NCBI GenBank assembly: GCA_013423385.1
Contig: BLZA01000013.1
Span: 718,528 to 782,527, forward strand
Length of the DNA: 64,000 nucleotides
Direction: 5' to 3'
From: Naganishia liquefaciens
Taxonomy: Eukaryota > Basidiomycota > Tremellomycetes > Filobasidiales > Filobasidiaceae
Shown: positions 9,529-64,000 of the stretch, piece by piece
Position numbering within the stretch: position 1 is the stretch's first letter
Layout of the letters: every line of letters begins with the position of its first letter
Program-made: the position numbers and the translations under genes
Notes under the pieces: generated by a model
Database searches by the model: none
What the model was told of the DNA's origin: nothing
Seen by the model: the letters and a program-made list of their open reading frames with translations, nothing else

Positions 9529-11733
9529 GATGTCGATAAGAGCGAGCGAGGGTCTGTTGTTTACGATATCAGGACAAGTGGACCCGACGACGATCAACCA
9601 GTAGAAGTGATGATTTTGGCTCGTATCTCGCAAAGTCACGACGTTTGGCCCCTTTTTGTCGGCGATTTCCCTATATGGTGGCGCGCAAAGGGGTGCGCCC
9701 GGAAGAAGATGAAGCGATTTGTTGATTTTACAGCATGACGGCATTTAGGCCCGCGCGGCGACGGGCCACCCAGGATGTCTGGCATGACTGATGCGACCAT
9801 GTCATCAATGTCCGTGGAGCCTCTGGCATCCAGGTAGTGTCTCCAAGAGGTCTCAATGCATGGATCCGTACAGGTAACAACACAGCTGTTCTGGAGGTCT
9901 CCTTATCTTGCAAGCCTTGGCGAATATCGGGCGCGGGAGGCGAGGGTTTCGCAGATTGTGGAACGTCATTCTGACCCATTCTGGAGGAACTGGACAACCC
10001 GCTAGCACCCGACGACACTGCTATGTTGTTGCATTCCGGTGGAATCCTGGAGGGCGAAAAGAAAGGCAGCAGAAGGCAGTGGTATCAAGCAGCGAGCTCG
10101 AATTTGCTTGTGGCTGTGCGTTTTCTCCTCAACATGAGTTTCCCTTGTGCAGGCATCATCAGGCATCTATCCATTTCGAAGAATTCCGCGGCCCCGTAGA
10201 TGCCTTCAGTGGCTCTATGTACGAAACCAAGAGCTTTGATCGCCTCCTTCTCAAGATCTCCGGTCGTCTCTCATGGACTTATCATTTACTGGCTTCGAGT
10301 TTCTCGGGCAAATTTTGAAAACAAGCATGGGCTTACTTAGCATGGGCCCATATCTATCATCATCGAAATGCCAGACTCTCAGAGCTGATGTGATCCCGAA
10401 GGGTCTGTGTTTGAAGGCAAATCATCTGTTTTATCGAGAGAATGAGAAAGGTCGCTGCGTGATACCAGCGCCGGTTTGAATCTATCGAGAGCGAAGACGA
10501 GAAGAAGTTCAAGGGCTAGAACTTGTTGAAGGATGCCGAGTATTTTGGACTTCGATATCTCAGGCTGCTTGTCAGATGTATCCGCGCTTGCCACAAAGTG
10601 TCACTTCTTACTGACAATATTAGCTACAAGATCTGGGTTCTTACTAATAGGACGACGTCGTCCGCTTCTCAGACGGCGACCTCTCTTATCGTGCTTCATT
10701 TCTAGTGCTGCTCCAATGAGAGCATGTCCGTAACATTAAAGTTAATTTGCCGCTGAGACGTCCCATACAACCGCGCCAAAGCCAAGGTACTCAAAAGATA
10801 ATGATGCCGCGCAATGCACCGGAGCGCGACTCAACAGAATACCATTCCGTTTTCAAATGTCTCGACAAGGAAAAAACCCAGTGATGTATGCCTGCCATGC
10901 TCGAATATTTCCTCGGGCTCTAGCTAGGACGATATCAAAACTCGCTGCTATTCATCGTAATACCATATCACCATTGCATCGCACGAGTATGAAAGTGTCA
11001 GGCAGTGTCTGCATTTGCGCTCGAGAATGGCCAGCTCTCGCCTGCTGGATGCTCCTATTTCGGGCCTGACCGTCCGCGTGTGAGCGAGATGATGCGTCGA
11101 TCAAATACTCGTTTCCCTCCGCAGTACCGCTATACCCGGCATTTTACAGTTATAGTTCACCATCAGGAAGCTCAAACTGGCTGCAGAATCTAAAAATCAG
11201 GTCGCCTTCAGCTGCTCCTCCTGAAGGATTACGGAGCATTCCCGGCAGTACCGACTGCGCCGAGACCGGGAAATCGTGGACGAGTGCAATCGGCATACAG
11301 GATCTGCAGATAACCCAGGTCACATACACGAAGCGAGCGAGTTGCGTTGTCATTCCTGACGTGTAGGCTCATCGAGACAGAGTAGCAGTGAAAAGTCTCC
11401 GTACTGGAAGCGGATGCCGATACGGATGCCGATACCGTATTCTAGAGGATCTTGCGGAAATTCTTCGGTCGTGTGACTGGCCGATGCGTGATCTGTGAGT
11501 TTGTCTGTGATAGCGATCACTCCGGAGCGTATGGACATTGTCTAGTTTTCACTACACAAGTGCTCCTTTGCGTCGCGTCAACCCGCCTCCAGACCGCCTT
11601 TTGTCAATGTTTCTTCAGGAATACGCGGTTGATATTTCGCTCTGCCCCTTTGTAGTTGATCCCTCACCTGAGCTCGCTGCCGAATCTGGCGTCAATCCTT
11701 CCTTCAACAGAAATCCGGAGAAAGCATTCGAAC
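9529..11733. other. 2.2 kb without a convincing gene
   Basis: Several open frames of 60-136 codons occur on both strands, none with recognisable motifs or matching splice signals. It probably contains the divergent promoters of the AT-hook gene and of the MAPKKK gene and perhaps a long 5' leader of the latter. A short direct repeat with the core CGGATGCCGATA lies at about 11410-11433. Confidence 0.4.
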
Positions 11734-14700
11734 ATGTCTCAACGGAAATCACCAGTCGTGCAACATACCCTTACGGGACCACGCGGCCCCGTCTCTCGTG
11801 GACGCAGCCATCGTCCGCAATCAAAAGGCAATCTATACATCGCGAATCCCGATAGCGACAGCGACAGCGATGATGCTCAGCGGAGGAACGGCTTAGGCAC
11901 GATGCCAGCTACTGTCCATCCGTTTGGGACAAGATCATCTGCCAAGTCTGATGGTCTTGGATCGCGGAACGAGATACCCGGATCTCAAGCTGGTTCGAAT
12001 ACGACCGATCAAGGTCACCTTCCGATCACAAGCGTGACTACACCCCGTCCGCCTTTGATGGGTCCGCAAGATCGAGAATGGCAACAGCAGAGACAGCAGA
12101 TTGCCCGAGGATTGACGGTCGTAACGCAACCCAAAACAAGTGGAATGACTGGACTACCTGGATCGGATGCTCATCGAGATCATGTTCCGGATGATTTGGC
12201 GCAGCAGCAGTACATGGGAGTAGCTCCTTCTGTCATGACGGGCATGCCGTTGGGTCCGACATCTCTGCGTCACGATATTTCTTTACAAAATGGCGAAAAT
12301 GCTGTATCGGCTACAGCCCAGTCCAGTAAACCTAGTCCGCCGTTGTCTTCCGCGTCTTCCAGTGTTCCGCCAGCTCTTCCGCCGCGGCCTTCTACTTCCC
12401 AGCAGTCTGTGCAGCCAACCAATCACCAGCAATCGACAATCAACTCTGGGCCAACACTTTCTTCAAATGGAAGATTTCCGTCTTCGGCAGCTCTGCCGAG
12501 AATGAATCCCACCGTAGCCAGTGTGGCCAGCCCAATCTCACTTGGAAGCGTCCCGTCTCCGATTCAGTCTTCCAGTCCGTCAAGTCCTTCATTTACATAT
12601 CCAGCCACAAGACGGATAAGCAAGGCCCAGCAAGGCGTCGGCGGTTCCCCTGTTACGACACACGCGCTTCCAGCCATTCCGCAGCATTCTCACTCTACCG
12701 GATCTCTACCGTCTTCGAAGTTAGGCTACGTCAGATTGCAAGTCACGGTTGACAACGAAAATTTCTCCGTGGTTGATGTGTCCGGCGTCACGAGCTCCGA
12801 GGCCATCATGGAGAGGGTATTCGCCAAACTGCGATTCAGAGATGACGACTACCCAAGCTTAACAATGTTCCGCACTGATATTGGGGAGACACCTGACGTG
12901 GAACCGATCGGCAAGGAGAAGCTGTTTGATGTGTGCAAGGCGGAGGGTGACTCAAAAGGTGGCTTGAAGTTTCTGGTCGTCCAAACATCGGTCTTGCCGT
13001 CTCCTTCGAGCATGGTTGTCCCACCCGCAATCTTGCATGCTGGGGCGCATCAATCTTTCTCCCATCTGGGCAGTCCCGTCGAGTCATCGAGAAGAACGTT
13101 CTCCGCAGGATCCGCAAGTCAACAAGGCGATAGAGAATACTCGCATCACCAAGCCGAATCAACGCATTCTCATGGGCATTCTCATCACGGGCCTGCGCAA
13201 GGACAAGGCGGATATGCCCCTTATCCAGTACACGGCCATGCACATGCCCTTCATCACCAACCACCCATACAATACCATCCCTCGTCAGCATTGGGCCAAT
13301 CCATGAACATCACCCCAGGCAGCAGACATTCCAAAGAAGGGAGCGTGTCCAGCGCAAGTGCAGCGGAGAGCGGTTCTGCCGGTATGCGGCATAGCGCTCA
13401 GTCGAAACCCGACCATACAGTATTCGAAAGCAGTCCGGCTGACGTCATTTCGCACAATAACCTCTTTGGAGGTTCTACTTCCAGCACTGGTGGGGGAGTC
13501 AGTTACTCGAGCCGCAATCAGGGAATGACGTCGAGACGACTTCCGAGTACAACTACCAGCCGCGGGTCGCAAAGTCCGGCGGAAGAAACGAGAGTCGGCA
13601 CGGTACGTCGAATCAGCGCGACGCCTCCTACCGACGGTACAGGCACAAGTCCGTTCCCGGGTCCGCCACCACCCTTACCGCCTTCTCGAGACGCACAGCA
13701 ACACTCTTTTCTCGGTGGAACGGCAACTCCGACTATGGCGCAATTCGGGGATCTTCAAGCAGCGGATCTACCGCATCCCGCACGCACACCTCGTGCCCTT
13801 CCTGTAAGTCAAGCAGCCTCTCATGCATCAAGTCCAGAACGCAATACGGCCCATCAATCAGTCCGCTCAAATAGTAATAGGGTGCCAACGGGTACAACTC
13901 AACGACCAGACAGCTCGTCATGGGAACGCTCTCCGAGTGAACCGACGGAAGCAGATATGGCAGTCATTATGCAGCTAGAATTGCAAGATGCTGAACGGGA
14001 GAAGGAGAAGAAAAAACAGATGGAGGAAGAAGACAGGAAGGTTGCGATGCAGGAGCAGCAGAAAGAGCACGCTGCCTGGGAGGCGCAGCGCAATGCAGAG
14101 CGAGAGGCTAGAAATAGACAGATCGAGGCAGACCGCCTGACTGCCGAGTTGACTGTAGGTAATGTCTCACAGCCGAGTTCTTGTATTGATGAAATCCTAT
14201 CTCCAGGTCCAGCAAGAACGCGAGCGAGCTCAGAGAGAGCAACGAGAGATTGAGCAGCTCGAAGAAGCAAGAACGAGACAGGTAGCCAAAGAGCGTCGCG
14301 AGAAACGTCAACAGTGGGAGAATCGAAGTCAAATGATTGACCGCTTGCGAGATACGGAAGGTCTCGCAACCATGTCTCCAGAATGGCTTTATGGCCAAGA
14401 AGGTTCAACTTTGCGGCCCGGAACGTCTGTTCTCCCACCAGATATCACGTCGCCTCCGCCCCGGCAATCTTCTGTCCAAAACAATGCTGGTCCTGACAGC
14501 CTCAGGCCTAGTCGACAACAGCCGACAAGCTCGAAGACCCCCATCCGATCGCCACACCCTACTGCGATGCAATCACATGCCTATGAGGACGCGTATGAAG
14601 GCTTGGCGCCAGGTGATTCCTATGGCGCGTATCAGGATCCGTTCATGGACTATCGGCGCCATTCGCCGGAACCTCGCCGGCGGTTGCCGCAATCTCAGGC

Positions 14701-24137: not shown

Positions 24138-24555
24138 CTGATGTTGCGTAAATGGATGGGCGATTGATGGGATCGGGCGATGTGACTCGTCAAGCGGCAA
24201 ACGTATGGCCTGATTGTTGACAAGAAGTGCATTCCTCGTCGCGTCCTGCCACCACACCATGGACCCGACCTGTACCGTCGTGGCTGAGCATAGACTTGTA
24301 TCGCGAAATCGCCACCTTGCCAACACATGCGCCGATATCGACCGGGACGAGATTGTCAACAAACGGATTTACGCCCCTTTTCCGCTTTTATTTTCTCGAC
24401 TAATCGACCGTCGGCCACCTCCGGCCCGCAATTCGAGCGGAGAATCACCGTCGGGCTATGAGGCGTCCTCTCCTCTTCAACCCATCCCCCATCCCCCATC
24501 CCCCATCCCCCATCCCCCATCCCCCCATCGTTCATCTGTACTGCCCACAACAACC
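24138..24555. promoter_or_regulatory. Divergent promoter between SLX4 and the amidase, with C-rich heptamer repeats
   Basis: The 418 bases between two start codons must hold both promoters. The right part contains about six CCCATCC-like heptamers in tandem at 24478-24528, ending some 30 bases before the amidase ATG. No TATA box is obvious on either side. Confidence 0.55.
24478..24528. repeat. Tandem heptamer (CCCATCC)n minisatellite
   Basis: Six to seven near-perfect copies of CCCATCC in a row, the last with an extra C. The complementary strand is a run of GGGATGG units and could form a G-quadruplex. It lies within what is probably the 5' untranslated leader of the amidase gene. Confidence 0.85.
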
Positions 24556-40400: not shown

Positions 40401-42208
40401 ATGTCCACTCACAACGATAACAACAACAACAACAACAACCTCGGCAACACCACACGAGGCCTCCAGGACCTGTCGCTCGGCGCACCTATTGGCGGCGGCG
40501 GCGGATCCTCTACGGCGCCTACTCATTCTTCCCACATCCAGACATCGTCGACCTCGGCAGGAGCGCCCTCCGCCGGCGTCGGATCCGGATTGGGTCACTC
40601 CCATCATTCGCATGATGCGTCGCATGCCCACTCGCACGACCACCACTCGCACGGCATGGGCGCGGGCGTCCTGTCCTCGGGTGAACGAAACACCACGTCG
40701 GGCGACCAGGGAATCGGACGGGGCGCAGGCGGTCCGACGGCGTTTGAGTCTGATGCTTCAAGGGTTGGAGAACACGGTCATCACCACCACGAGCACGGCC
40801 ATGGCCATGGCCATGGATTGAGGGGAGAGGGTGCCGCGACGGCAGCGGGGTTGACCGGTGCCGGTGCTGGTTTGACGGGACGAGGAAACGACAGGAACTT
40901 GGCGTCGACGACCGGTACGGGATCCGGGTTGACGGGTGCCACCACCCACGGTACTGGAGCCGGCTTGACCGGTCGAGGTATCGATGACCGTGCCGACAAG
41001 GAACACGGCCACCAGCACGACGTCAAGGACCACAAGGGAGACTTGACCGGTATCTCGGACAAGGGATCTCACGGTCTGGGCAAATTGCACGGCGAGCGGG
41101 ACTTGGTCAACGAGAGCGGACTGGAAGGTCGTACGTCCTCCCACCCCTCTTCTCTCGCTTTTCATTCCGTGTATACTAATAGAATTCCGTGGTTAGACGC
41201 CAAGGAAGCTCGGGAATACAACCGACACGAGGGAACCGCTGTCGGAGCCGGTGTTGGCGCGGCCACGGTCGGCGCTGGAGAGCCCAAGGTTGCGCACGAC
41301 TTGCATGCTCGGGATGCCCACCACGGATCGACCACGGGAACGGGCTTGACGGGCGACCGCCACGTCGGATCCGGGTCCGGCTTGACGGGTGACCGCCACG
41401 TTACGTCTGGCCTGACTGGCTCGAACACTACTGGATCTGGTCTGACTGGCTCGCACGGTACCGGATCTGGCTTGACTGGCTCCAACACCACTGGATCCGG
41501 CTTGACTGGTTCGCACGGTACCTCGTCCGGCCTGACTGGCGCACACACCGCTGGTTCTGGTTTGACCGGTTCGCATGGACACCACGGTGCCGGTGCTGCC
41601 GCTGCTGGTGCCGCCGGAGTGGCCGCTGGAGCGGGAGCCGTCGGATTGACTGGTCGTCAAGGTACGTTGTTCTCCTCCCCGCCACTCTTGATCCACATGT
41701 TGAGGGAACCCCCTCAGCCAACCGAATGGACGCAGACGGTGTCATTCAGGACTCTGTAACCGGCCAGACCCACTTTGTCGAAGGCCAGTCCGGTCTCGCC
41801 GGCCAGCAATCCACCACCCGCGGCGCCTCCGGTCTCGGCGCTGGTGCCGGTGCGGCAGGTTTGGCCGCGGGCGGTGCCGGTTTGGCGCACGGCGGTCACC
41901 ACCAGGGTCAGGGCGCTCACGGGTTGAATGAAAAGGTGCGAGACGAGACGGCCACCCGGGGTGCCGATGACGGACCTTTGGCCGGCATCAAGCAGGAGCT
42001 CAAGGCCCACGAATGTAAGCTTGCACCCTGTGTCGCGCGCGTGGAGAGGTACTGATTCTTGCGGGTTCCTTTTGTAGCTGGCGAAGCCGGTCACTCGGTC
42101 GAACACCCCGAGTCCAAGGGACCGCACGGATTGGTATGGCACGACGGCAAGTACGTGCACGAACGGGAGATTTCCGGCCACGGCTCGACGGGTGTGCCCT
42201 TGCGATGA
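40401..42208 (+). CDS. Gly/His-rich repeat protein, hydrophilin-like
   Basis: A very hydrophilic protein with three introns (near 41129-41197, 41664-41718 and 42014-42078). After an Asn run (residues 6-13) come His-rich clusters (HSHHSHDASHAHSHDHHSHG, HHHHEHGHGHGHG) that could bind metal ions, then many G-x-GLTG elements. The core at about 41406-41585 is six tandem ten-residue units of the form SGLTGSNTTG/SGLTGSHGTG that partly alternate as 20-residue pairs. The C-terminal part is conserved-looking: IKQELKAHE, GEAGHSVEHPESKGPHGLVW and HDGKYVHEREISGHGS. Composition is that of stress-induced hydrophilins/LEA-like proteins, an inference from composition only. A TATA box and strong codon bias suggest high expression. 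Confidence 0.7.
41406..41585 (+). repeat. Six tandem 30 bp coding repeats (SGLTGS units)
   Basis: Each unit encodes ten residues beginning SGLTG. Units alternate between an Asn-Thr-Thr-Gly and a His-Gly-Thr ending for the first four, then diverge. Synonymous differences between units show that they are not very recent copies. Confidence 0.85.
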
Positions 42209-55770: not shown

Positions 55771-57349
55771 ATGAAGCTGTCCGACAAGCAGCTCCAGGGC
55801 CTCAAGCTCTACAAGTACTCGGGCGTCGACAAGTCCATTCTCTCAAAGACCGTCCTCACCCCGTACTGGAACAACCTCGTCAAGCTGTTTCCGAAATACA
55901 TTGCGCCGAATACCATCACTCTCATGGGTCTCACCATGATCTTCATCAACGTTGCCACGCTCCTGTGGCATGACCCGCAGTACGAGGGATATGCGCTGCC
56001 GAGCTGGGTGTACTGGTCCTTCTCGATCGGCCTCTTCATCTACCAATCCATGGACGCAATCGACGGCAAACAGGCACGGCGGACGGGCATGGCAGGTCCG
56101 TTGGGAGAAATGTTTGATCATGGATGCGACGCCATCAATGTCACGCTCGAGGTCATTCTCGCGCAGGCGGCGTTCGGGTACTCGAGGTCGTGGTGGACGA
56201 TTGCATCTCAGGCGGCGGCCATCTCCAACTTTTACCTGTCGACATGGGAGGAATACCATACCGGCACGCTCTACCTCTCGGCCTTTTCGGGACCCGTCGA
56301 GGGCATCTTGATGATTTGCATCATGTACGCCATCACGGCGCTCAAGGGTCCGGCCATCTGGGCAACACCCATCATCCGGGCGATTCCGTACGCTTGCAAC
56401 ATGGTCGACGCGCGCATGGCCCGGTTCGGGGTCAAGCCCAAGATGATAGACCTCACCGCGGCGGGCAAGGGCGTGGTCCCTGTGCTTTCGTTTGGTCAAC
56501 TCGGAGGTCAGGCGTACACGGCGCTGTCCAAGGTCGGATGGCTCAGGGACTTGTCGGTGCGCGAGGCATTCATGTGGTTTGGCGCCGTCGGATTGCTGGG
56601 GAACATTGCCAATTCGTACGTACTATTCGGGATCGTTCTCTTCGTCTGCTGACATTCGCCGCAGCTACGCAAACGTCATTGCCGCCAAACGAAAGCAGGG
56701 CTTGCCCCTCTTGCCGCCCTTGCTTGGCCTCGTTCCCTTTCTCGTACACGTTGCCCTCCAGGTCGCATGGCTCGCCGGCTCCATCGAGATTGTCGACTCG
56801 ACGCGAATGCTTCCTTTCATCTTGTACTGGGGCGCTTGGTATGTTCAGCGACTTTGACAAAACCGTCTGTCTGCTGACGTGCCGGAAAGCTTTTCGTACC
56901 AGGTCAGCAAGCTGATTCTCGCGCACGTCACCAAGAGCCCATTCCCGTACTGGAACGGTATGATGCTCTGGACGGCTATCGGCGCGATCGATGCCAATGC
57001 GCCGCTTCTCTTCGGACGGTGAGTTCGGGATAGCGTCGTAACAGGTGTCAAGCTGACGAGCATCGTTCGCGCAGAGCTCCGTTCATCCAAAACACGGAAC
57101 AACATGCCACGTACTTTATCGTCTTTTCAATGGCTGTCGCCGTTTTGAACTACCTTCGATATGCCAAGAGCGTCATCTGGCAAATGTAAGGGCAAAGTCG
57201 AAACCTCTCCGCTCGCGGTTACTGATCGGGATCCTTCTTGCAGTACCGACTTTACCGGACTCGCCTGTTTCACTGTTCGCCACAAGGATGCCCAGGGCGG
57301 ATGGGTTGACAACACACAAGCGACCGAGGACAAGAAGAAGAACCAATAG
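55771..57349 (+). CDS. CDP-alcohol phosphotransferase (choline/ethanolaminephosphotransferase)
   Basis: Integral ER/Golgi enzyme that makes phosphatidylcholine or phosphatidylethanolamine from diacylglycerol in the Kennedy pathway. The signature D-x2-DG-x2-AR-x8-G-x3-D-x3-D is complete in DAIDGKQARRTGMAGPLGEM followed by FDHGCDA (near residue 100). The N-terminus LKLYKYSGVDKSILSKTVLT and WNNLVKLFPKYIAPNTIT is typical of CPT1/EPT1. Seven to ten hydrophobic helices follow, with later exons QVSKLILAHVTKSPFPYWNG and VLNYLRYAKSVIWQ. Four introns near 56619-56663, 56838-56889, 57020-57073 and 57188-57241. The ATG at 55771 has the context CCGCCACCATGA. Choline versus ethanolamine preference cannot be decided here. 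Confidence 0.92.
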
Positions 57350-57961: not shown

Positions 57962-59514
57962 TTATTCTTCACCGTCTCGTGTCGATAATTCCGTCAACGA
58001 GCTACTGCGACTCCGCGAGGGCCCGCTCACTCTTGAGACCGGAGTGTGAGTGTGGTCATAGAAGGGTTCTCTTCTTTCCGGATCAGCTAGAGCCGGTTCT
58101 CGTGAGCCCCGACCATTGAAGGTCCCCGCTGGATACCAGATGGGACTTGGGGATCTGGCAAGGGTTTCGTCCACCTCTTGCATTTCGGATCGATCTCGCC
58201 CACTGGAACCGGTTTCTGAACGAGATTCCACGGCACCAACCGGGTGACTGCTTTTCTGTGCTGCCGAATGGCGTACATCCTCACTTCGAGACGAACCTTC
58301 GGTAGCCTTCGAGTTTCCGGTCGCCTCTGAGCCTTCTTCCGTGGCCTCTGAGCCTTCTTTCGTAGCCTCTGAGCCTTCTTCGGTTGCCTCTGTGCCTTCA
58401 GTCGCCTCGCAGTTTATCGAGCTCGGTTGCGTCTTCGTTGACATCGAGACGCCGCCCGTTCGATGTTCCATGTGGAAGGTAGATGCCATTGTGATATCTC
58501 GAACCCCGGCGCAAGCTTTTGAAGTGTCAGCATGTGATGTAGTGGGCTGGACATTTTCTTCATTGGGCAATGGTAATCTTATGGATGGAGGCGCTAGGGA
58601 TGTAGCTGCCGCCTGTGTGATGATAGATTCTTTATCCATCGTTGAGGCTTGACTCCCGCCGCAAGCCGGTGCAGCCGCGACCGCACCTGTCGAAACCGAA
58701 CGATCGGCGCCGAAAGGCAAAACCGCTGGCGCCGGATAGCCTAGTAGAGCCGTCAGCGAACGCAGTCGCATCGATCTCGACTCTGTCTCGCTTCTACTCA
58801 CCTGATACTACCGGCTGCCCCGGATACATGCCGAAGAAGGGTGTAGAAGCCGCTGGATTCATGCTTCCCAAGGTCGAGTCTGTCAGACGAAGTGCACCAT
58901 TAGTGAAAGACCTGGTCGCTCCTTTCTCTGCAAAGACTTACTCATTCCCGCAAAGACACCGCTAGGACCCACTGGCCATATCATTGGACCGATCGGCAGA
59001 CCATACGGGCCTTGTGGTAGCCCATACCCAGGCTGTGCAAAAAACACCGGCCCCGCGTATGGCCAACCCTGCGATGTTGAACTGTACGTCGTTTGCCATT
59101 GCGCCGGATTGGCGTACCCCGATTGTACGGGAGCAGTGTACTGGCTTGGCCGTAGTGCGAAGGCTCCGGGGTGGTGAAGTGGTGGCTCAGACGTCTGTGT
59201 GGACATCTGATCGACCTGAAACTTCCCTGCGGCTGTCCTCAGTCCAACGGCCCTGGTCAATTGATGTTCGTCATGGCATGAGCTGGAAGCTTACTCGTCG
59301 ACAGATGTACTTGGCGTCCTGATGAACGCTCAATGCTCATGCCCTTGCGAATCGCTACTCGTGATGACAGTCATTCAACTGATTTTCCTTTCGGTAGGTT
59401 CTGTACTTACCCCGAGGATGGTCTGGCCTCAAGGGTTTTCTCACCCTTTTCTTCTTGCCAGGCCTTGTGCTCACTGATAGGAGGCGTCATTTCCTGGCCC
59501 GTATTGCGTTGCAT
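57962..59514 (-). CDS. Low-complexity protein with acidic repeats, unknown function
   Basis: Exons joined in frame give MQRNTGQEMTPPISEHKAWQ, then GTPSTSVDEAVGLRTAAGKF, QVDQMSTQTSEPPLHHPGAF, and a Pro/Gly/Tyr-rich stretch (GWPYAGPVFFAQPGYGLPQG, PYGLPIGPMIWPVGPSGVFA). Next, NPAASTPFFGMYPGQPVVSG and YPAPAVLPFGADRS, then a Ser/Glu/Thr-rich tail with about six imperfect eight-residue repeats of the EATEEGSE type (about 58285-58405). The end RSSSLTELSTRDGEE precedes TAA at 57962-57964. The composition suggests a disordered nuclear or RNA-associated protein, which is a guess. The start at 59514 is the best-fitting ATG but an upstream exon is possible. Confidence 0.6.
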
Positions 59515-60633
59515 GACATCGCACCTTCTCGATCAGCCAGGTCGAGTTTTTTTTCCACAACCAAAGTCGGGCCTCGCATTGGCACTGCCATCGTTTTCAT
59601 TCGTGCTACATTGGATTCGACCGTTGACAGTTCATCAGCTCTAACACACAGTCTCGTCCAGAACGTCCCGACTCTCCCAGCTCCCTGCATGCTCGATACC
59701 ACGCCAATTTGCAGCGTTCGACTTACTGCAGTTCACATTTGTCTGCGGCATTCCAAGTCCTGACAATCCCCACGAGCTGCTTGGGCCTAAGAGCCTGTAT
59801 CAGCAAGACGTGGGTCAGCAGCCTTCGCTCAACACAAGAGACCCACCGACAGATCGCGGTCCACTAATACTCGCTGATCGACTTTGCTTCCGTCACGCGT
59901 GTCTCCGGTGAAATAGGGGGGTTCACATACCACTGGGCGTCAAACCTTAGTAGAATCGGGCGCGGCTACGCGTGTTTTTACAGCATGTAGCGCTTTTGTC
60001 GGCAAAATCAGCGATGGTCCGATCTCATTTGAGTAGCGCACATGCTGCGCATCTTGTACGTCATGTAGATAGATTCGTAGGGCGGTGTGTTACATTATGC
60101 GTGGCTTTGGAAACACAAGGTGTACCGCTCAATTCTCCGCCGCGTCAGAGTCGGTCTACGTGCTTCGTACACCGTGTCGCATCGCGTCTACAGATCAATT
60201 TACCTGCTGTCAGCCTCGTTGTACTTGGGTTCTATCTCACGGAGGCTGATGCGTAGCGCTCAACGTTCTAGAACTGCCACCGGGCTGCCCTGTACCAGTC
60301 GCGGCCTGGCAGGTCACCCATGACGTCTTTCTTTTTGTCGTCATGTAACCAGCATAGCCAGCATCCCCATATATACATTCACGCAATCCCCACAGGCCAC
60401 ACTTGCCTTACGACATGGTCTTCCTTATGGAAAATCTCCCTTGCTTGCCCATTCGCATCCAGCTCTCGACCCCTGGTTCCGTCATTGGTTGCCTACCATC
60501 CTTTCAAGTACTCAGGTTCTGTTCGATCCCATGGTCAGTCAACTGCACGTTTCTTGTGGCGTCGAACACAAGCTTACACTAGTGGACTTCGTAAATCTGA
60601 ACCGGGATCCATAGCCTTCCAAAGGCCCTTCCC
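59515..60633. other. Subtelomeric stretch, promoter of the telomere-proximal gene
   Basis: Over 1 kb without a firm gene. The first exon(s) of the next gene are probably at about 60415-60630 (ATG at 60415 followed by FLMENLPCLPI) but splice joins could not be settled. A TATATACA element lies near 60369. Confidence 0.4.
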
Positions 60634-61946
60634 TCGCCGAACTCACCAAGCAAATCACCGAGCTCAGGCTCGCTGTCGAAGCAATGGATAGCATCAGCCC
60701 CAAGGTCGCCCGACTAGAAACAGCTATCGACAATATTGAAGGAATTCAAATCGCCGCCGCGGTCAACAACCAGATCGAATTAGCCAAACAAGAGATAATC
60801 AGCACGGTCGACGATAGACTCAGGGCGCAATTCGCCGATCCGGACTTACAGTGTCAACTGCACGCTCGATCTTCGCAAGAAGATTTCCCAGAGCTCACTT
60901 TGACAGAGCTGAAGTATGGATTGCTTCAGGTTGTGCGCCAGGAAGTTCGTGACCAGCTTAGTCAACCCACCTTCCTAGTGGAACTTCGAGACAAGTTACA
61001 ATTGTCCGGTTATGATGGCGACTCGGAAAGTAACGATCGCATCAAGAGTCGGAAGACTTCCGGAAGAACTAGAAATATTTCGCGCGAGGTGAGTGCAACA
61101 ACGCCTCCCACCGTCCCACGTGGTAGTAGCTCACCCATTCGCACGGAATAATAGCATCTCATCCATTATCACTTCCACTCATTGCTCAAGAAGACCAATC
61201 GCCGAAGCTGCTATTGGCCTGAGCTGTCGTATGTCACCGAGGAGCCAGGAAGCGTTCATCACTGGCCCCGTCCCGTTGGCCCTGATTTCGAGCAGCCCGT
61301 CAGCCTTCTCATCAGCGACGTGCAAGAAGAGACTCGCCTAATCGAACGGGCTATCAACAGGGGCGAGGATGTGAAATGGGATCCCACAGCTGACGAGAGA
61401 ATTGTGTCAGCCTCTGACGTAGAGATGAGCCCGCTCAACGCACCGGTGAATCGAGCTACAGTGTGGCGACCGGACTTTTTGCATTCCAGAGCCAGTTCGT
61501 GAGTCATGACAACCGTATTCTCCAGCTCCGGACAATTGAATGAGAGATCTTTAGATCTCATGCGTTCCTAATCAAGGTTTACGAGCTCTGCAAGGCCACC
61601 TTGCTCGCCTCGCAGAACTCAGGCGCCGGCGAGCTGACACAGCTGGAGAGCCAATGTCTCAACCAGGAGATCTCTATATATTGGGACAATGTGAGGAAAG
61701 AGTATCTCGTCCAAACGCATATCGATCGTCGCACTGCCAAAGTCGCTCAACAACGCCGCGATAGGCGGAACCAGCGGACTGAAAGGGTAAGCTCACCATT
61801 TATCACCTTGTTCGAAAAGTAATGGACTCTTCCTCAGGCCTTGAAAGATCGTTATGACAAGTTCCATTTGTCTCCACTTCAGGGCATCCATAGATGGGAG
61901 TGGTTGAAAGCAGCGGGGTTAGGGGTTAGGGGTTAGGGGTTAGGGG
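60634..61946 (+). pseudogene. Coiled-coil gene truncated by telomeric repeats
   Basis: Exons: SLAELTKQITELRLAVEAMD, then ISPKVARLETAIDN and STVDDRLRAQ (heptad-rich, coiled-coil), LTELKYGLLQVVRQEVRDQL to ISRE; after an intron (61088-61189) KTNRRSCYWPELSYVTEEPG, WDPTADERIVSASDVEMS, NRATVWRPDFLHSR; after a second intron, FLIKVYELCKATLLASQN and CLNQEISIYWDNVRKEYL; after a third (61790-61839), ALKDRYDKFHLSPLQG and HRWEWLKAAG. The frame then runs without a stop into TTAGGGG repeats and ends inside them (LGVRG stop, TAG around 61933). All joins are GT-AG and in phase. So a real gene lost its 3' end when a telomere was added. Family unknown; probably a subtelomeric repeat gene. Confidence 0.65.
61915..61946 (+). 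repeat. Interstitial telomeric tract, about 4.6 units of TTAGGGG
   Basis: Starts GGGGTTA at 61915 and continues perfectly to GGGG at 61946. The G-rich strand runs 5' to 3' toward the right edge of the window, the orientation of a right chromosome end. It now lies about 2 kb inside. Confidence 0.95.
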
Positions 61947-63980
61947 TGTATCAGATACCAACATTGAACTAACGTATACATTCAAAGACTAATCTACCAA
62001 GATCAAAAACTCCAATTCCTTCGATATTCGCACCCATCCAAGTTCAAGATCCTCCTCTCTCCTATCCTTCCGCCTACAGAACGAACGATCTCGCGCGTGC
62101 CTTCAATAAGATCAAAGATAGCTGTTGGCACAGGGTCGAAAAGGCCGCAGGAGGCATCGTGTCCTGCCACAACTTCATTACCTCCACCGTCCCCTTATCC
62201 ATCATACCTCCGACGGTAAAAACCAGCGGCGTGAACGGAATGCCGTTGCGCGGTAGCCGTCGGATCTTGTCGTTTGCCTTCGAATGCAAGAATTTCGCAA
62301 TCAAGGCGTAACACCGCTCGGTCGGCTCGTCGGGCGCGAGATTGGGTGGGATACGAGTTTCCATCGAGTCCCTGGTAGACAACGAGACCACTGTGACGTC
62401 GTATTCATGACGCGCTACACCGGATGTGGGATTACCGGTCACCCGAATATCGTTCCGTCGGGCGGTTCCTCCGATAAGGGGCTCCACTACGACCGCTACT
62501 CCTGGAATTTTACTGAGCGCAGACGCGATTGCCCGTTTCACTTGTTCGTGGCGGGCCGTATTCCACTTCTGGCGATGGACACACACCTCGGCATGGCCAA
62601 CTTCTAGTGTCCTGACGCCGCAGTGCCGGCAAACTCCTCCAGGTGTGGGAAGGAGAGTTTTCACATGTAAACCTGCTGAGACTTCGAAGTCGGAAAGGCG
62701 CAACGATGCGTGAAAAGGTACAATAGAGAGCCATTTCTTTCCAAGACCGGTCGACGATTCGAGTATGGTTTTAACTTGTTGGTCGGTCAGGTTGGAAAAA
62801 AGCTCATTTCTTGTAGCTTCAAACACTTTGTCGCAGCGTTCTCGTTGTGGAATGATTGAGGTCAAATCGTACGGGTTGGACAATTCGTCGGATACTTCTC
62901 CAGAGCCCAACAAAGGCTCTAGAAGAAGGTCCGCCACGTCCCGGGCCGCGCTGTGTGCCAAAGGAGCGCATGTTTCGTACGACAAGAGCCCCACTCCTCC
63001 CATTCGGACTGGTAGGGAGTACAGGATGTCGGAGATCTTGGCTTGAGATTCGGTGATGTCGTCCGTTTGGGCTCCCCGGAGATCGTTCGCGGTGTTCCAC
63101 ATCGCTCGGTCGAGTCTCTTCCAGACGTCGGTCAAGTCGTCGCTCGGCAGACTGCGTTGAAGGTGCCGAAGTTCTTGCTGCAGACATTGACGTAGCAATA
63201 GCAAGCTGTGCTGCCGGGGCAGTCCTGCAAGCCTTGTCATTTTGGCCTCTAGCTTTTCGACCTTTTCTTCGAGGAAACGTCTCCTCGCTGGAGCCGATCC
63301 GAGGCAAGAGCCCAAGATTCCGATGCCGTTGGACTTTGCTTCTGCCAGGGGGATGATCGACGTCTTCTCGTTGTTGAGTTGCAGAGTGGCGTCAACGTTG
63401 CCGAAGAAATCCAGGACATGTTGCAGCGTGTCTTCGGACTCGCTGAGGATGTACATGTCATCCAAATAGGCGAGAATAGTGGTATTGCCGGCAAGACGGG
63501 ACCCAAGCTTTTCGATCATCCGCCGAATTCCTATGGAGAACAGGAGGGGACCCAATGGATCGCCTTGCCGAACGCCCTGGCTCGACAAGATCACCTCGGG
63601 AGCGTCTTCAAGGCCACCGAAAACGAGGTTGGATGGCTCGTTGTACGCCCATTTCGCCACCTTCCAAAGTCCAGGAGCGTATTTCTTGATCGCCTTGGCC
63701 ATGTCCCCCCGATTCAGGGTATTAAACGCGTTTCGGAAATCGAGCGAGGTGACGTGCGTGAAAGTCACTCCCCAAATGGGACCTTCCATGGCTCTTTCGA
63801 CGGCCCGGATCACAGGTTCGACGCCGCTTCGAGTGCCCACCCCGAATTGGTTAGGGGATAAGCTGTCGGGTCGGAACGAGTGTCGGAGGATGGTCTTCGT
63901 ACACAGTCGATAAATGAGTTCGCCAACTGCAATTGGGCGAACTCCGCCATCCGGCTTGTCCAATGCGATGAGTTTTTTGA
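61947..63980 (-). mobile_element. 5'-truncated CRE-type non-LTR retrotransposon between telomeric tracts
   Basis: About 2.03 kb occupying the space between two TTAGGGG tracts. Its coding strand is minus, so its 3' end abuts the inner tract and its 5' end points to the chromosome terminus, as in telomere-directed elements such as Drosophila HeT-A, Magnaporthe MoTeR and Cryptococcus Cnl1. The 3' untranslated part is about 127 bases and lacks a poly(A) tail, ending TGATACA before CCCCTAA. The 5' side begins inside the reverse transcriptase domain and is fused directly to telomeric repeats. Everything N-terminal to that is missing in this window. Confidence 0.85.
62074..63980 (-). CDS. Reverse transcriptase plus restriction-like endonuclease, N-terminally truncated
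   Basis: 635 residues, open to its broken 5' edge. RT motifs: LIALDKPDGGVRPIAVGE (motif 1), SLDFRNAFN (catalytic Asp, about residue 75 from the TTG at 63963), SSQGVRQGDPLGPLLFSIGI, and ILAYLDDMYILS (YxDD, about residue 166). The thumb follows. Near the C-terminus a zinc knuckle C-x2-C-x8-H-x3-C (CRHCGVRTLEVGHAEVC) precedes the endonuclease core with ARRNDIRV and HEYDVTVVS, the R-x-D and Asp elements of the PD-(D/E)xK-like nuclease of CRE/R2-type elements. No frameshift or stop is visible over the remaining length, so the copy was inserted recently. The element lacks its N-terminal DNA-binding part and cannot move by itself if this is its full extent. Confidence 0.9.
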
Positions 63981-64000
63981 GGGTTAGGGGTTAGGGGTTA
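63981..64000 (+). repeat. Terminal telomeric tract (TTAGGGG) reaching the window edge
   Basis: GGGTTAGGGGTTAGGGGTTA. The first unit has three G, the following ones four. It may be the true chromosome end or the start of another element beyond the window. Confidence 0.9.

Follow-up and report, generated by a model that had tools for sequence, protein, structure and literature searches.

Layers of retrotransposon and telomere repeat at chromosome ends have already been described for MoTeR, FoTeR and CNL1, together with a telomerase step for MoTeR. The accounts of MoTeR1/2 in Magnaporthe/Pyricularia oryzae report copies with their 5′ side toward the tip, short inter-element tracts and truncated copies capped by telomere, and propose truncation followed by new telomere formation (PMC7367193, PMC8381367), a course of sequence loss and re-capping that was called relatively rare (PMC7367193). 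The sections covering FoTeR of Fusarium oxysporum describe RT and REL, ~3–8 telomere units behind the 3′ ends and 5′ VNTRs, and give no 5′ junction rule (PMC12857005). CNL1 (Cnl1) of Cryptococcus neoformans is reported to form telomere-associated arrays that include truncated insertions, and its precise sequence specificity is stated there as still undefined (PMC12810828). SART1/TRAS1 of the silkworm, the Penelope-like Athena and HeT-A are likewise telomeric retroelements, from other lineages, and SART/TRAS are described as inserting at other repeat positions (PMC7265360).

The window analyzed here is a stretch of 64,000 nucleotides from Naganishia liquefaciens (G000:C7:718528-782527) at the right end of contig C7 (C7R); its position 64000 is the last base of the contig (782,527), where the assembly stops. 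A gene at 55771-56628, whose relatives are named ethanolaminephosphotransferase or similar, is 82% identical to its counterpart in N. vaughanmartiniae, 81% in N. albida and 62% in Filobasidium floriforme, a species whose contig ends are described as carrying the TTAGGGG repeat (PMC9210288). A search with 11656-14253 gave no named match. From the inside to the tip, the last 2.1 kb comprise single-copy subtelomeric DNA, a telomeric tract, a minus-strand element, a filler and a second tract (Table 1), which confirms the original prediction of a truncated RT/RLE element lying between two TTAGGGG tracts with its 3′ end adjoining the inner one. A two-unit telomere pattern gave four matches, versus none in all of 100 shuffles.

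Table 1 Features of the chromosome end at positions 61915-64000 of the window
Feature	Position	Strand	Detail
Inner telomeric tract, GGGG(TTAGGGG)4	61915..61946	+	32 bp
5′-truncated family-A RLE non-LTR retrotransposon	61947..63972	-	~2.03 kb
Conserved element 3′ terminus, ending GGTATCTGATACA	61947..61990	-	Alignment of 28 family-A ends
Element 3′ untranslated region	61947..62073	-	
Stop-free ORF (RT, thumb, linker, RLE)	62074..63972	-	Stop codon 62074-62076
Reverse transcriptase domain PF00078	63352..63960	-	YLDD at 63457-63468
Zinc-knuckle and restriction-like endonuclease motif	62398..62631	-	Motif pattern; R2 structural match
Filler TTTTTTGA between truncated element and outer tract	63973..63980	+	8 nt; comparison with C27R, C14L
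Outer telomeric tract GGGTTAGGGGTTAGGGGTTA	63981..64000	+	20 bp, at contig end

On its inner side, the inner tract is joined to single-copy subtelomeric DNA (..GAAAGCAGC|GGGG). The flank 60000-61916 matched only itself in a search of the genome; the window's own break therefore has no unbroken site for comparison. Single-copy open frames at 60615-61914 reach the inner tract and may belong to a gene that the chromosome end truncates; a Pfam scan of the two ORFs adjoining the tract gave no match above the cut-off. Elsewhere, the window contains a (CCCATCC)6 array, a 60-bp repeat and a 21-bp repeat (24481-24525, 41406-41575, 58315-58399).

The element's ORF can be read as 638 aa on the minus strand (63990-62074), its initial codons deriving from the outer tract and filler, and it matches the PF00078 reverse transcriptase with an E-value of 9e-18. 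The predicted structure of 62077-63945 (mean pLDDT 87.4) matches R2 over its full length, through RT, thumb, linker and RLE, with the alignment extending to residue 623. By sequence and by fold alike, the top PDB matches are R2 proteins (silk moth, bird and turtle structures), at 14–19% identity in the structural alignments. R2, whose own target is 28S rDNA, shares a common fold with the element, which we assign to the RLE-type (R2 superfamily) non-LTR retrotransposons on the basis of an RT with YxDD and a LINE-type fold, a C-terminal CCHC knuckle and a predicted PD-(D/E)XK-like nuclease; motif and predicted fold agree on this type, as had been proposed. Purifying selection acts on both the RT and the nuclease. 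The RLE motif, CX2CX8HX3CX9RHE-X20-EP-X7-RND-X16-D, is spaced like the consensus given for CRE/SLACS/FoTeR, but with RHE, RND and X16 (PMC12857005). The label ‘CRE-like’ would denote this motif spacing, as set out in the FoTeR sections of that source, together with nearest named relatives from Cryptococcus. Among these is P0079, which we infer from host and motif to be CNL1: it is 39% identical over the full query and has the RLE motif, including RND. CNL1 differs in its protein (37–39% identity) and in the order to which its host belongs, and in that at least three families coexist in the Naganishia genome.

The 5′ truncation of the window copy falls in the RT region, and its sister copies at C27R and C14L extend further upstream. 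Two long copies are open in a single frame over 1,168 and 1,193 codons from stop to stop (C27R, 1,193), with an N-terminus that is rich in C and H, where zinc fingers may lie, and that the window copy lacks; the longest copies reach ~5 kb or more. Two long copies carry repeats, of 84 and 120 bp, upstream of the ORF, a feature by which FoTeR is likened to them by description. The likeness to MoTeR, whose intact 5′ ends are described as bearing TTTGGG-type repeats, is also one of description (PMC7367193, PMC8381367).

Three lineages, A, B and C, can be told apart among the copies across the genome; their 3′ ends differ while their junction register is identical, and at least three telomeric element families coexist in this genome. 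In a tree of 54 rows (relatives from the protein search plus own copies), each lies beside relatives from other sources; family C is identical over 630 residues to one relative's protein and 92% identical to a Naganishia albida protein. Family A, to which the window copy belongs, is the commonest, and the last ~40 nt are its most conserved part (28 ends aligned). In all three families (C7R, C1R, C22R), the motif TGTATAYGT was seen by eye 34–38 nt upstream of the 3′ terminus, the rest of the 3′ ends being different. The 5′ regions of a family-B copy (C1R 52-441) and a family-A copy (C27R 1131-1521) are 90% identical although the proteins differ by ~40%; this region has been either shared or exchanged.

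A protein search with the RT gave at least 36 genomic matches, and none of the 36 listed is more than 12.6 kb away from a contig end, each having its 5′ side outward. In the window, the element's 3′ terminus starts at 61947 (TGTATCAGATACC on the plus strand, ..GGTATCTGATACA on the element strand). Its exact 14-base sequence occurs at 44 sites, none of them farther than 16.6 kb from a contig end, so that, contrary to the possibility that the element resides mainly at non-telomeric sites, these copies are confined to chromosome ends. The 5′ side points to the tip and the 3′ side inward in 43 of the 44. The next bases are CCCC in every case (CCCC(C)TA in 43, CCCCTGA in one), two termini carrying one extra A, and the 3′ junction of the window thus recurs throughout. 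With up to one mismatch, the terminus was found at 51 sites, versus six for a reversed control; three of the seven additional sites are element ends (C6, C13 and an internal relic at C17:1165500) and four lie inside contigs. Element sequence is present on 34 of 56 contig ends by hand tally (at C13L, not until 6 kb inward of the tip), and eight further ends carry a tract without element sequence. In the fetched ends, what lies tip-ward of an assembled non-tip tract (≥2 units) is a complete or degenerate element 3′ end, C22L and C3L 2102 being ambiguous. These results support the proposal that the element uses the chromosome end as its target.

There are two exceptions. The sole inverted 3′ end, at C17:1613905 (C17:1613826-1613918, L063), faces the tip and is 16.6 kb away from the contig end; the other exception is an 84-bp family-A 3′-end relic some 465 kb into C17. 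At C17:1165440-1168475 (L051, L052, L058), ~462–465 kb inside the contig, TTAGGGG and CCCCTAA tracts stand head to head 3 kb apart; together with the 84-bp relic, they represent either a fossil telomere–telomere fusion or an assembly join.

The fixed 3′ junction, the restriction to ends, the purifying selection and the R2 fold make insertion by target-primed reverse transcription at telomeric repeats, as in Cnl1, MoTeR and FoTeR, the most likely route, as judged from sequence; target-site duplications are invisible within telomeric repeats. The tracts behind element 3′ ends are short (7–54 bp, median 21; 51 rows, one of them false), a range that may partly reflect sampling because tracts longer than ~50 bp may be lost from the assembly. 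Such lengths, and the telomere-like 3′ ends of families B (CCCATAA) and C (CCCATAT), would suit an element that copies its inner tract from a CCCCUAA tail on its own RNA and whose RT caps broken ends without telomerase. We consider this improbable: the commonest family, A, has no telomere-like end, the nuclease is conserved, and in CNL1 the CCCCT comes from the target, because the target duplications reported in FRR1 contain CACCCCT (PMC12810828). In any case, longer tracts may interrupt the assembly or, by the argument made for MoTeR (PMC7367193), may lack stability. Spread mainly by break-induced replication or by recombination between interstitial tracts, known from the MoTeR arrays described in the same source (PMC7367193), could explain why the copies at C7R, C14L and C27R share ~98% of their DNA sequence. 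We rate it as slightly less improbable than RNA-tail copying, since copied arrays would have boundaries and flanks in common, whereas the 5′ boundaries of 17 elements differ, as do the inner flanks of these three copies.

We compiled 63 boundaries between a tract and the other DNA inward of it; sampling was restricted to contig tips and to positions behind element 3′ ends, and the boundaries were counted individually, shared ancestry being disregarded (C12L 2331 was excluded as a false row; C13L 6149, CCCCC, was included). Read on the G strand, 25 of the 63 have the form C|TTAGGGG, versus ~5% in a random-phase, random-site simulation (p ~1e-16), and C is the preceding base in 25 of the 26 boundaries in TTAGGGG phase (p 2e-11 versus one third). 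Starts inside a G-run (≥2 G) account for 36/63 and are not enriched, the simulation giving ~58% as the sum of its listed classes; single-G starts, simulated at ~19%, are absent (0/63), and two boundaries lie outside both classes (T|TTAGGGG at C18L, C|TAGGGG at C16R). The proportion of C|TTAGGGG is alike at element ends (7/17) and elsewhere (18/46; Fisher p 1.0), in a comparison where a moderate difference would be undetectable at such numbers and at least one boundary is misfiled (C16R 5135 is an element fragment), while the reference set used for sorting allows self-matches of the element rows C7R 20, C1R 51 and C2R 90. Close unbroken homologs (≥88% identity over 60 bp, with their own upstream side not tract) were present among the fetched end sequences for 22 boundaries, 13 in elements and nine in other DNA. 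The C is native in 11/11 C|TTAGGGG cases among these, and overlap with the tract is low (mean 0.86 nt), which is weak evidence alone. The breaks at C5R and C6L lie 34 bp apart in one sequence that is continuous in C1L.

Truncated elements therefore appear to have been joined to telomere repeats in the same way as broken chromosome ends, and the like signature at both favors healing of truncated ends by a telomerase-type activity, with telomerase itself as the probable maker of the healed tracts. For the window copy, the original prediction of a broken 5′ end capped by TTAGGGG and resealed by telomerase holds in part. The outer tract is present, although it does not adjoin the element directly: the intervening filler resembles neither telomere nor the near-identical sister copies at C27R and C14L. 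The likeness of junction signatures between element ends and other boundaries favors resealing by a telomerase-type activity. The sequence does not show that a 5′ end was first present and then lost, truncation at birth being at least equally likely. Both courses fit, and birth seems the likelier because short copies dominate: the 17 elements with both ends assembled measure 112–3,825 bp (16 lengths, median 605; hand-compiled), and two of 200 bp start at different bases. New CNL1 insertions in FRR1 are reported to measure between 180 bp and 3.5 kb, a spread ascribed to an early stop of reverse transcription (PMC12810828).

Ordinary target-primed reverse transcription within a longer tract, in which a nick is followed by joining of the truncated cDNA to the pre-existing distal tract, would dispense with telomerase at the outer junction. 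Target-primed insertion into the tract is what the FoTeR authors favor in the sections concerned (PMC12857005); it accounts for a fixed 3′ junction with scattered 5′ truncations, and filler bases suit end joining. A non-random 5′ register that is alike in elements and other DNA would be unexpected from end joining, and we regard this explanation as rather unlikely, if the strongest of the alternatives. An assembly artefact is a very improbable explanation for the outer tract. The tract is short and sits at the very end of a contig, and contig ends often stop in tracts or at element 3′ ends, but the arrangement of tract and truncated element recurs elsewhere, assembled with sequence on both sides. 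The outer tract may not be the present tip and may itself precede another element, as assembled tracts away from the tip nearly always do.

We consider it likely that the element is a telomere-targeted RLE non-LTR retrotransposon coupled to telomerase-type healing, and that the window records one such cycle. A chromosome end, sometimes broken, bears short TTAGGGG repeats, which are seen in the sequence and would be made by telomerase. The element protein would take the G-strand 3′ end in the phase ..TTAGGGG-OH, which either its nuclease or natural erosion could supply, and prime cDNA from the element 3′ terminus toward the tip, as the invariant 3′ junction suggests. An early stop of synthesis would leave the 5′-truncated copies that are observed; the end of the truncated cDNA would become the new chromosome end and gain TTAGGGG, probably by telomerase to judge from the junction signature, and the new tract could accept the next element, giving the arrays that are seen. 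Against this model stand the filler at the window's outer junction, the assignment of both window junctions to the G-run class and neither to C|TTAGGGG, an outer tract of just 20 bp at a contig end, G-run junctions no commoner than simulated, and the inverted and internal 3′ ends on C17. The shortness of the tracts behind elements also means that telomerase alone is insufficient as an explanation.

The excess of C|TTAGGGG was the least expected result, and no mechanism for it is sure. We tentatively suggest, as a possibility somewhat short of even, a start rule whereby tracts begin after a native C or inside a run of at least two G, at retroelement and other ends alike. If true, it would report how telomerase (for example, through a template with G beside UAA) or a helper seats a non-telomeric end, and on the template reading a telomerase RNA template ending ..CCCCUAAG would be expected. 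A search for the telomerase RNA gene with the pattern TAACCCCTAAG gave 26 sites, all but ~4 of them at tracts (reversed control, nine), and no candidate; Telomerase_RBD was matched by two stretches. One element copy, at C25L 3059 (L036), has an interruption whose join carries TAACCCCTAAG, resembling what the insertion of telomeric bases during repair of a break would leave.

An open-licence literature search combining Naganishia with telomere and retrotransposon terms returned no title on such elements, and within it we found no precedent in print for the host, the coexistence of families, the 44/44 register or the C|TTAGGGG excess. The present data extend telomere-targeted RLE retrotransposons to a Filobasidiales yeast in which at least three families coexist, and give one register in all 44 3′ ends, where the specificity of CNL1 was left undefined. 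Fixed 3′ junctions, differing 5′ junctions and the unbroken homologs of 22 breakpoints allow insertion and healing to be read separately. Should the start rule be true, truncated retroelement copies would preserve dozens of chromosome-healing events as a natural archive, and the rule itself would be a concrete prediction about telomerase in this Filobasidiales lineage.
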